Shown: positions 3,679 through 6,934 of the stretch, piece after piece
How the letters are laid out: the number at the start of each line of letters is the position of its first letter
Numbering within the stretch: the first letter of the stretch is position 1
DNA from: Scytonema tolypothrichoides VB-61278
GTDB taxonomy: Bacteria > Cyanobacteriota > Cyanobacteriia > Cyanobacteriales > Nostocaceae
DNA: 33,296 bases
Reading direction: 5' to 3'
Assembly: GCF_000828085.3 (NCBI RefSeq)
Contig: NZ_JXCA02000002.1
Coordinates: 37,320 to 70,615, forward strand
The notes under the pieces: generated by a model
Database searches by the model: none
What the model was told of the DNA's origin: nothing
Seen by the model: only the letters and a program-made list of their open reading frames with translations
Translations under genes and position numbers: made by a program

Positions 3679-3912
3679 TTAAGCGATCGCCGCAAGCCTG
3701 CGGGCGCATAGCGCCTGCAGCGCCACTGCTCCATACTTCAGATAATGTATTACCAACCGAATTGAACACTTAAGCATTTCTTCTGATTTAGAGTAACAAA
3801 AAGTTTTACGATGTAGTCGAGCGAGATAATGTCTTAAACGGCTGTTTTCTCCTTCAACCCAAGTCAAGTACGTTTTACTAACGATGTGGTCTTCATTGCT
3901 AATAAAACACTG
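3679..3912 (-). pseudogene. IS1-family transposase C-terminal fragment
   Basis: The minus strand, entering around 3912, encodes a run with SNEDHIVSKTYLTWVEGEN then SRLRHYLARLHRKTFCYSKS, which is the C-terminal part of cyanobacterial IS1-type InsB-like transposases. The upstream two thirds are missing: the frame runs directly into the 3' end of the transposase gene that stops at 3899. The last codons before the stop (3679) run through a GCGATCGC-rich repeat, so the natural end is probably altered as well. This is a remnant with no expected activity. Confidence 0.8.
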
Positions 3913-5043
3913 ATGGAGTTGAAATCCTCGCTAAAATTCCTCCCATAGCTTGTGCAACTCTACCGGGTGTTAATTTAGTAATTGGTTTTTGCCACGGAAC
4001 CGGGTACAGGTTGACGATATCACGGGCAAGCCACAACTCCCAACTCATTAGAGGCATTAAATCACTCCATCGGTCGCATTGTTCTGGAGTTGAGAGCTTG
4101 GGAACAGTCCAATGTAACCGTTGTTTTGCAAATCGATACCAATGATCGACTGCAAATCTTCGCAAGTAGAGTTTCCAAGTTTCAGATAACGGTGGCATTT
4201 CGTGTCCGACAAACGCCAACCACATTGGTGTTGCTCCTGGTAAGGAGCCATCGGAATTCAGGCGTTCAACAAGTATTATCGACATTGAATAACTTGGAGC
4301 TTTACGAAAATGCTTTTTATGCCAAACTCGAATTCGTGCCCTTCCAATTTGGGTATCTTCTTCCTCAATGATTTGTGTGGGTTCTCCCCAAGTACTTGAA
4401 TCATTCAGTATAAAATTACTACCGTGAACTCGCGGCTTTCCCCGACCTGAATATTCTGGTGGTTCCCCCCACAAGCATAAGTTTGAACGTAATCGCATGA
4501 GTTTATCCGCGTTGATACCCGCAGTTTTGATAACAAATGGCGCACACCCGTACTCGATATCCCACAATGTTAACGGTCGAGATGGTAAGTTTTGACACAC
4601 TTGTCGTAGTTGCCACACAGCTTTATCAATTGGATTTTCCCAACTCGTAATTCGCTCATTTCTTAACGGTAACGCCCAACTTCCCTCTGTTTGAGGTACC
4701 CAAGCAATTGTGCTGTATCCATACCCTGATGTCACTGGACGACCTCCAAACCCACCTTGGGTATAATGCTCGTAAGTTCGTTCTTTGAGAGTTTTAGCAT
4801 CAGGTCTCGACCATGCAGTGTGGTCACCTGCAAGGATGATACGCCCTTGTTTCGGTATTTGTTCAATGTAAAGTCGCATCAACTTGTTTCGCTGCGGTCT
4901 GGTATCTTGTATCGCCTCGTAAATGCTTGACCATTTACGTTGAAAGACAGGACAAAGTGATAGGTCTGCCAAACTATAGGCGTTGCGTGTCAAAAGCACC
5001 GCATCCATTAGTTCAAATGTTGCATCTTTTGCCTTGCATAAAA

Positions 5044-5054: not shown

Positions 5055-5813
5055 GAATGGCACTAAGAAAAGCAGAAAGCTATACGAGGTAAGGATTCCA
5101 ACTTTTAATCAATGAGTAGTGATTGGGGGGGAGCAACGCAACTTTGTGAGATGACCTCATAATCAAGTGCGATCGCTACCGCATCAGACACAGCGAAATG
5201 GATGGAGATCCTGATGCACGGGTTGTCGAAAAATTCTTTAGGTAGGAAAAGCTTACTCATTCATGAAATACTTTCTTTGAGACGAGCAAGCATACTTTAC
5301 CGATACTACTATGACAAATCGTGTGATAATCCTCAAGGATAAATTTAATCAAAGTTTAGGATTACCTTTTAAAGAACTGTTACCATCGTCTGTAATTGGG
5401 CAAGCACTCAAAGAGCTAAAAATTAAATACAAGCAGCGATTATTTGACCCATTCGTAACGTTATGGGCATTTTTATCTCAGGTTTTAGATACTGATAAGA
5501 GTTGTCATAACGCCGTGAGTAAAATAATTGCGTATTTAGCAGGTCAAGGGGTAGAACTTCCATCAACTGATACAAGCGGCTATTGCCAAGCGTTTGGCAA
5601 GGATACCAGAAAAGCTGTTAGAAAAACTTTTTGGTAAGGCTGCACAAAATTTAGAAGAGAAAGTGACAACAGAATATTTATGGTGTGGTCGAAATGTCAA
5701 GGTCATAGATGGATCAACAGTATCAATGCCTGACACTGTAGAGAACCAGAAAGCATATCCTCAGCCCAAGACTCAAAAGCCGGGATGTGGATTTCCAATT
5801 GCAAAAATCGGTG

Positions 5814-5924
5814 ACGCATTGGGACAAAGAAATGGGGCAAGCCTTATTACTACGACACATCGAGGAGACAACACAGATCAACAAAACAAAGGCTTGCCCC
5901 ATTTCTCCAGTTATTCCCCCGGTG
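5814..5924. repeat. Palindromic in-frame insert, copy 1 (111 bp)
   Basis: Inserted between AAAATCGGTG and TGATATTTAG of the transposase, with the short sequence CGGTG present on both sides. It begins ACGCATTGGGAC and has perfect 18-bp inverted arms at 5828-5845 and 5889-5906 around a 43-base loop. The length is 37 codons and it is open in the transposase frame, adding residues DALGQRNGASLITTT and onward to SSYSPG. No gene of its own is visible. Confidence 0.8.
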
Positions 5925-5948
5925 TGATATTTAGTTTAGCGACGGGTG

Positions 5949-6056
5949 ACGCATTGTCCCCTAGAAATTGGTCAGCCTTTGTTTTGTTGATTTGTGGGTG
6001 CAGACGGGTACTCGTTGTAATAAGGCTGACCAATTTCTTCGTGTTAGACCCTCGTG
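5949..6056. repeat. Palindromic in-frame insert, copy 2 (108 bp)
   Basis: Inserted 25 bases after copy 1, after GCGACGGGTG, and ending with CTCGTG before CAGCTGTTGC. It starts with the same ACGCATTG and has perfect 17-bp arms at 5963-5979 and 6022-6038 around a 42-base loop. The loop is a diverged reverse complement of the copy 1 loop (shared AAATCAACAAAACA-type run and ATTAC end). Length is 36 codons, open in the host frame. Confidence 0.8.
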
Positions 6057-6934
6057 CAGCTGTTGCTTTAGTTATCGACGTTTTGAACACTCATGATATT
6101 CAACTCGCACGCGTTTACTCTATCAGTTTCTTAATCCTTTAGATATTCTTTTAGGGGATAGAGCTTTTTGCGCTTATGCCGATATGGTTGCTATAAAAAA
6201 CATCAATTGTGATGCCGTCTTCCGTAAGCATCAAGCTCGAAAAACGTCCATGCATAAAGGAAAAATTGTTGGAGACTGTGACAAGTTGGTAACTTGGTAT
6301 AAACCGAAAAAATGCCCACTAGGATTAAGTGAATTAGAATTTGCTGCACTGCCTCCTACTTTAATTGTACGAGAAATTTACTACTACATCTTCATTGCTG
6401 GTTTTCGCACAGAAAGAGTCAGTTTAATCACTACTCTATTAGATACAACAACTTATTCTACCCTAGAAATTGTTAGGCTTTACGGTAAACGTTGGGATGT
6501 TGAATTAGATTTCAGACATCTTAAAACTACCTTAGGCATGGATGTTTTACGATGTAAAACACCTTCTATGGTACGCAAAGAAATTTATGTTTATTTACTT
6601 GCCTACAATCTGCTTCGTAGCTTGATGTGGTCGGCTGGTACTACTTACGGTACTCCTCCGTTAAGTTTATCGCTCCAAGGCACTCGCCATCATTTAAATA
6701 ACTTTATTCCCGAATTGCTAGCCGCAACTTCAAAGCAACGTTACCTAATTTATCGCACTTTACTCAAAGTTATTGTTCACAAAGCAGTTCTCCATCGCCC
6801 TGCTAGAAGTGAAGCACGAGTTCGTAAACGTCGTCCTAAAGCTTACCCGTTGATGACCAAACCCCGTCAGGAATTACGCAAGCAATTGCAAACTGCTTAA
6901 ACCACAAGTGTTTCGGCTTTTCTTAGTGCCATTC

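Follow-up and report, generated by a model that had tools for sequence, protein, structure and literature searches.

We asked what the two palindromic segments are that interrupt an IS4-type transposase in the 33,296-nucleotide stretch of Scytonema tolypothrichoides VB-61278 analysed here (the window), and what their stop-free reading frame means. The host, at 5311..6900 on the plus strand, was classed from the ORF map, Pfam and an empty sister copy (L055) as an IS4-type (DDE_Tnp_1) transposase pseudogene. In the ORF map its coding pieces are the plus-strand ORFs 5311-5637, 5594-6142 and 6184-6900, and a Pfam search of these pieces placed PF01609 on 6184-6897 (E 4e-12). A repeat search together with L055 located insert 1, a 111-bp element of type B, at 5812..5922 and insert 2, a 108-bp element of type A (TG class), at 5947..6054, both on the plus strand; the 24 bp of transposase that separate them (5923..5946, plus strand) are contiguous with both flanks in L055. 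An earlier note on this DNA, written from its letters alone, had described two inserts of about 110 bp, 24 bases apart, at 5814-6056. Junction sliding covers the difference in coordinates: flank and element share bases, and the junctions can be moved by up to 5 bases for insert 1 and up to 3 bases for insert 2. L055, a sister transposase from another Brasilonema species, aligns with the window transposase in two stretches (85% and 82% identical) and contains neither insert, so that the comparison of related IS4 copies proposed in the earlier note found both sites empty. Across the two sites its sequence runs AAAATAGGT^GTGATATTTAGTTTAGTAACTGGT^GCGGCT, where ^ marks the insertion points. Both window insertions are located at GGTG, and they have in common the edge GGTGACGCATTG, which begins at 5810 and 5945.

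Each insert consists of a left foot, a stem-loop and a right foot (TGACGCATTGGGACAAAG and CCAGTTATTCCCCCGG being the feet of insert 1, TGACGCATTGTCCCCTA and TTCGTGTTAGACCCTCG those of insert 2), and the loop of insert 2 is reversed relative to that of insert 1. The perfect stems of 17-18 bp that had been noticed at first reading were recovered: the arms of insert 1 are 18 bp long (5828..5845 and 5889..5906, plus strand), those of insert 2 are 17 bp long (5963..5979 and 6022..6038, plus strand), and in both cases the 3' arm is 100% complementary to the 5' arm. Both inserts are free of stops in the local frame (ORF 5594-6142), in which insert 1 with the flanking glycine codon reads G-DALGQRNGASLITTTHRGDNTDQQNKGLPHFSSYSPG. 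The transposase itself is broken twice, at ~5590, where L055 has no break, and at ~6100-6140, where L055 has the same one. The host is a pseudogene, and because of this the in-frame state of the window inserts, correctly described in the earlier note, is no evidence of tolerance at this site. The shared frame break is identical in the window (~6097-6142) and in L055 (~1416-1459), with two reading frames that overlap by roughly 45 nt, and it could represent programmed frameshifting instead of decay.

Are the inserts members of a repeat family? In their own genome (7.9 Mb) a BLAST search with both inserts gave 62 matches, some of which are one palindrome read on both strands; this is far beyond chance. 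The covariance-model search suggested in the earlier note, with a model built from 16 copies, a threshold of E <= 0.01 and 150 candidates scored per genome, gave 393 matches, partly double-counted from the two strands, and reached all seven Brasilonema genomes (78, 43, 23, 24, 69, 123 and 33 matches). An order-wide covariance search found matches in the own genome alone among 243, with just 16 candidates scored per genome; this result is not evidence of absence and was replaced by a family-wide DNA search. Here insert 2 (E <= 1e-6, four candidates scored per genome) matched 13 of 217 genomes of the GTDB family, namely seven Brasilonema and six others, in 6 of 56 genera. A longer query with a looser limit matched 11 of 40 genomes, including two genera (G009, G023) with weak matches only. 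Pattern matches were present in Brasilonema bromeliae, B. sp. UFV-L1, B. angustatum and Scytonema hyalinum. Plasmids of Brasilonema octagenarum UFV-E1 and Scytonema sp. NIES-4073 carry related stretches; searching plasmids at the peptide level found nothing. Matches to the 20-base left foot of type B also turned up in L104, L112, L114 and L117, on contigs labelled Selenomonadales, Proteobacteria and Cytophagales; with the rest of the element outside the view, these foot matches may be due to chance.

From the fetched loci other than L054-L102 we extracted 112 distinct copies free of N, 90 of type A and 22 of type B. Typical copies are 108-111 bp long and begin TGACGCATTG. In type A this is followed by TCCCCTA and the right end is CGTGTWAGACCCC(C)G, while type B continues with GGACAAAG and ends in CCAGTCATTCCCCCGG; type A falls into the subclasses TG, TC and CG by its first bases. 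A third right end, CCAGWCGGAACCCCG, occurs in L278, L294, L296 and L298, where the stem-loop is of the usual kind and the left foot resembles that of type B, and the ends and hairpins appear to have been exchanged as modules. The two conserved feet are unpaired, and left and right foot are not inverted repeats of each other. Between them stands a perfect stem. An unbroken run of 17 or 18 pairs was counted in 73 of 78 copies of type A and in 16 of 19 of type B, and 92 copies contain 58 different 5' arms. The covariation that the earlier note had read from two stems was upheld in an alignment of 16 copies: both partners have changed in 9 of the 15 stem pairs, pairing holds in 95% of cells, and none of 500 shuffles reached the covariation score. 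Its further claim, selection for a folded hairpin, stands less firmly: pairing this complete does not require selection on an RNA, since it could equally come from copying directed by the hairpin (quasipalindrome correction) or from a role of the hairpin during transposition. The loop occurs in both orientations relative to the feet (forward/reverse: TG 16/12, CG 12/15, TC 14/3, B 3/14). In L126 and L137, which occupy the same site in homologous genes of two genomes (IS630-type transposases by eye), the stem is identical and the loop is reversed.

Several type B copies (L277, L282, L293, L302) are shortened or truncated; L277 has 57 bp in all and keeps the feet and the stem base without the loop. 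The loop of a type B copy in L035 (416-707) is interrupted by a second small palindrome, which has the ends CTCGACTTTATCC and GGATAAAGTCGAG and CTAAT on both sides and is apparently a different MITE.

Occupied and empty versions of the same site could be compared in many cases. Clean junctions against an empty homolog were obtained at thirteen sites: the two in the window and L012, L017, L018, L024, L109, L113, L116, L120, L129, L184 and L195. Agreement was less exact for L010, L016, L019 and L025 and poor for L013; the CG-class sites L140, L156, L157 and L188 were off by one or two bases with the boundary used, and the L031 junction was imprecise. For L143, L173 and L205 (3 of 15 sites) no spanning empty copy was present among the fetched loci. 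The many copies, together with the 13 occupied/empty sites, bear out the mobile palindrome family proposed in the earlier note, and neither ordinary conserved IS4 protein at the two sites nor a lack of other copies, the two outcomes named there as fatal to the proposal, was found. We conclude, with a probability of about 0.78, that the window inserts are two copies of a non-autonomous mobile palindrome of ~108-111 bp that occurs in Brasilonema and some related genera and keeps the reading frame of a gene that it enters in an open phase. Feet and hairpin would be recognised by a trans-acting enzyme that cuts where foot meets target; such in-phase copies would lengthen the protein by 36-37 residues, and copies that break needed genes would be lost.

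We then asked whether the in-frame state also holds in genes other than the window transposase. In our test the element was removed, the site had to lie within an ORF reaching at least 60 codons to either side, and the frame was scored again with the element present. All seven type B cases were open by this test, and the type A host-ORF rows, with CG-class boundaries corrected, comprised 11 open, 6 with a stop and 5 with a frameshift (n=22). A census of type B with its left-end pattern (one mismatch) gave 35 left ends in six of seven genomes and 30 loci; five of the 35 had no locus, and two of those were viewed through L025 and L035. Among the 32 left ends examined, 21 were accompanied by a type B right end and 11 had none in range. 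For eleven type B copies a host ORF extends at least 40 codons to either side; 10 of these ORFs are open and one is broken, the broken host (L279) being a transposase by eye. The antisense ORF rows L279 minus, L286 plus and L301 minus all contain stops and were left out of the host count. The hosts above Pfam cut-off include an MMR_HSR1 GTPase, an RRXRR/HNH (IscB-like) protein, nSTAND1 with CHAT, DUF3987, OprB with SLH, HATPase_c and ABC_tran (insert near the N terminus). guided_TnpB scored above cut-off for the L133 host and below it for the L116 host, and the L113 host matched actin-like ALP_N below cut-off. The broken type A hosts are mostly transposase-like by eye. The in-frame state is thus real outside the window transposase, and the behaviour that the earlier note had likened to that of Rickettsia palindromic elements recurs in otherwise intact genes, as in 10 of the 11 type B ORFs. 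Copies in or beside TnpB- or IscB-like genes, judged partly by eye, are L017/L286, L105, L116, L133, L140, L156, L170, L195, L205, L212, L225 and L232.

The GTPase is the strongest single in-frame case. In the window's genome (L304) it has 556 residues including a 37-residue insert, and an empty ortholog from another Brasilonema species is otherwise 99% identical. Of 24 genomes searched, 23 contain a match that is at least 60% identical along almost its full length (none in G006; the G013 match contains a stop). In the own genome two halves match at 99% within one open frame, while the other 22 matches are unsplit. The insert begins about a dozen residues past the P-loop GKT and ahead of the GTT motif, a region that we take to be switch I. 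The nearest NCBIfam model, below its cut-off, is the slr1306 family.

How much of this frame-keeping is chance? For a window null, type B copies were placed at the GG^TRA sites of 22 window ORFs, and the probability of an open frame was 0.38 (0.45 for copies of length 3n), compared with 0.10-0.16 for the type A classes. The type B value is this high because forward phase 2, in which the target forms the glycine codon GGT, takes the largest share of GG^TRA placements (551 of 1463 site-element combinations) and is also the open phase (in 16 of 19 type B copies). Against 0.38 the observed 10 of 11 gives p = 4e-4 (1e-3 with a same-site pair counted once), and against 0.45 it gives p = 2e-3 (5e-3). 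The type A count of 11 of 22, in which the rows L131, L159 and L184 minus strand were kept although by eye they look like non-genes, gives p = 2.6e-4, or 4.5e-5 with 19 rows. With a null drawn from the 11 host ORFs and their nine distinct elements, P(open) rose to 0.61 and the type B p-value to 0.035 (0.053 with the same-site pair counted once); this null is inflated, being drawn solely from host-resident elements with the real sites among its placements. The type B excess over the host-gene null is marginal. Landing in frame is thus largely intrinsic to the type B element and its target, with selection possibly on top; frame-keeping is partly built in, GG^TRA falling most often on the glycine codon GGT in a stop-free phase.

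These numbers also allow for a purely neutral mobile repeat, whose in-frame copies are the survivors of selection on the genes and carry no coding adaptation; we give this reading somewhat less than an even chance. It accords with the broken half of the type A host-ORF rows, with the marginal type B excess (p 0.035-0.053) and with the presence of several dispensable IS genes among the hosts. It accounts less well for the openness of the commonest phase in type B and for the lengths, which are a multiple of three in 56 of 97 copies up to 121 bp (53 of 92 distinct sequences), although this is partly due to shared descent. A bolder extension of the mobile-palindrome reading, which we hold only tentatively and think rather doubtful, is that target choice and coding frame are matched, so that type B decorates working proteins by the design of its sequence and not only through survival, homes to the same sites in diverged paralogs and flips its loop. 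In the phase in which it enters glycine codons, most type B copies read as a clean linker that starts with DALGQ and ends with SPG, and L126 and L137 provide the loop flip at one site.

Do the copies spread by free transposition, or mainly within gene families by homing or gene conversion? We consider the predominance of the latter possible, though on balance improbable. In its favour, of 428 host codons aligned between the TnpB-like paralogs L105 and L116 of one genome, 199 differ (139 synonymously and 60 not), yet both paralogs carry an identical 111-bp element at the same site. In L133 and L140, which differ in 137 of 453 host codons, the element is likewise identical and one flank matches perfectly for 275 bp, the trace expected of a conversion tract. 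Such same-site copies arise by conversion or homing, and the L105/L116 data fit either. Against a general role of this route, only five same-site pairs (L161/L172 and L159/L160, the latter within another short repeat, also among them) occur among the copies compared, and one element sequence recurs in unrelated genes: L113, in the actin-like ORF of another species, is 98% identical to window insert 1. The closest other copy of insert 1 that we saw, G001:C33, is 98% identical over 115 bp.

The junctions themselves bear on how the mobile palindrome moves. The type B target is GG^TRA (21 copies: G at -1 in 100%, G at -2 in 86%, T at +1 in 100% and A at +3 in 76%, with mostly G or A at +2). In type A the first two bases of the element equal those of the right flank in 44 of 90 copies (TG/TG 30, TC/TC 14), and CG-class elements are followed by a CC flank in 17. 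Junctions can be slid by 3-5 bases in 22 of 22 type B copies and by at least 2 bases in 32 of 36 TG and 15 of 17 TC copies; in the CG class 13 of 33 copies allow no sliding. A general target duplication of more than 2-3 bp is excluded, and one of 2-3 bp looks the same as a match between element end and target, because element and flanks share bases. At L018 the element begins with TG, the flank is TC and the empty site is TC in three relatives, which speaks for end-target matching over duplication. On the opposite strand many sites have the form '..TCA ^ CGGGGTC ... GCGTCA ^', presumably reminiscent of IS200/IS605 elements.

A MITE moved in trans by a DDE transposase with a 2-3 bp target duplication is an alternative to be weighed, and we regard it as unlikely. 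Size and palindromic shape are usual for MITEs, all 22 type B junctions fit a shared GT or longer, and 32 of 36 TG-class and 15 of 17 TC-class copies fit at least 2 shared bp. The feet, however, are not inverted repeats of each other, L120 allows one shared base only, 13 of 33 CG copies allow none with the boundaries used here, and for type A the left TG, right TC and empty-site TC of L018 do not agree with a duplication. Single-strand transposition of the IS200/IS605-REP kind would be our first guess, from the resemblance of the target to the element's own end. As the identity of the mobiliser, IS200/IS605-type transposition in trans is a guess with the odds well against it, weakened because all 22 type B copies fit a short target duplication of 2-3 bp.

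Y1 transposases occur in all seven Brasilonema genomes (48 matches). A Y1 transposase with the same ends was not present in the 30 of the 48 loci inspected, none of which was flanked by element ends. The elements near Y1 genes in L212, L222, L225 and L232 resemble insertions between or inside IS605 genes. No long autonomous version was seen among 133 left ends in 320 fetched loci: 108 were paired with a right end within 345 bp, 22 were alone and 3 lay near the end of the locus, and farther right ends, at 359-669 bp, occurred only in L175 and L290.

It is very improbable that the hairpin acts as an intron-like or bypass element, cut out of the message or passed over by the ribosome. Mitochondrial byp elements are likewise hairpins inside genes, but here a stop-free reading in frame would not be needed, and no Rfam 15 family reached its gathering score over the window inserts or in 15 loci. 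On the window Rfam found two tRNAs only, outside the inserts; in the 15 loci a relaxed threshold gave 19 matches, the best with E 0.0018 and all below gathering scores. The HEARO/IscB guide RNA, considered as a candidate, had no Rfam match. That the segments are ordinary conserved parts of an IS4 transposase, as their local frame might suggest, is refuted by L055, which lacks both, and by related sequences in unrelated genes, and has next to no probability left.

Finally, we asked how the cyanobacterial palindrome compares with known systems. Nezha, MITEb and MITEe, compared by description only, are like it small non-autonomous repeats of filamentous cyanobacteria, as are the small dispersed repeats of Nostoc. 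Classical MITE terminal inverted repeats were not seen in our elements: the feet are not complementary over their length and the long pairing is in the inner stem. In the parts of the literature consulted, MITEb and MITEe (Anabaena PCC 7120) are named among MITEs with ORFs (PMC10969869) and Nezha is listed among TIR-type MITEs (PMC3733652). Rickettsia palindromic elements (RPEs) are described as 105-146 bp long, with a long stem-loop, inserted in frame in unrelated protein genes and adding a peptide (PMC2229807, PMC10969869); a table in PMC2229807 gives them a 12-bp terminal inverted repeat and lists their target duplication as unknown. RPEs and the Wolbachia coding palindromes resemble the present family as palindromes of 100-150 bp with many copies, in frame in unrelated intact genes. 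Our element differs from RPEs in being cyanobacterial, in its dissimilar feet, in the several kinds of end on one hairpin type and in the two orientations of its loop. By analogy it appears to work like an RPE, and we set it beside RPEs by behaviour and not by sequence, without filing it as one. ERIC, Correia/NEMIS and YPAL elements, according to the sections of PMC2229807 at hand, measure 100-200 bp and form stem-loops, and their open frames become part of genes (for ERIC, Correia and YPAL also in PMC10969869); all have target duplications, and ERIC and Correia have inverted repeats with TA ends (PMC2229807). In contrast, our element has feet that do not form an inverted repeat, and a general duplication could not exceed 2-3 bp.

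The likeness to REPs and REPINs (GTAG, CGTC) lies in an unpaired tag beside a palindrome and in some copies inside ORFs. As far as described in the portion of PMC3733652 consulted, REPs are 20-40 bp long and some are located within ORFs; the CGTC families have stems of 8-9 bp and no known dedicated transposase. That portion reports no CGTC repeats from cyanobacteria; GTAG REPs are present in Anabaena and Nostoc. With 108-111 bp and a stem of 17-18 bp our element has neither the size nor the short stem of a REP, and its left end, which on the opposite strand ends in GCGTCA, does so ~16 nt from the stem. Among the top-ranked open-licence papers on Brasilonema and Scytonema repeats, in-frame palindromes, small dispersed repeats and MITEs, none mentions this family in its title or in the first lines of its abstract.

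In-frame mobile palindromes have been described before, in Rickettsia, Wolbachia, some other MITEs and some REPs, as the consulted parts of three papers state (PMC2229807, PMC10969869, PMC3733652). What we report is a seemingly separate family in free-living filamentous cyanobacteria, distinguished by exact occupied/empty pairs between close species and by exchangeable ends on one hairpin type, with one copy just behind the P-loop of a conserved GTPase. It makes testable the tolerance of added peptides in working proteins, frame-keeping as a property of the element, and the enzyme that moves palindromes without a known transposase; effects on single proteins are directly measurable because close empty orthologs exist. 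A minor observation concerns a neighbouring transposase of the window (3899-5008, minus strand), which belongs to the NF041680 family: its look-alikes (by eye) elsewhere in the genus carry type A copies, in frame in L120, with a frameshift in L136 and with stops in L010.
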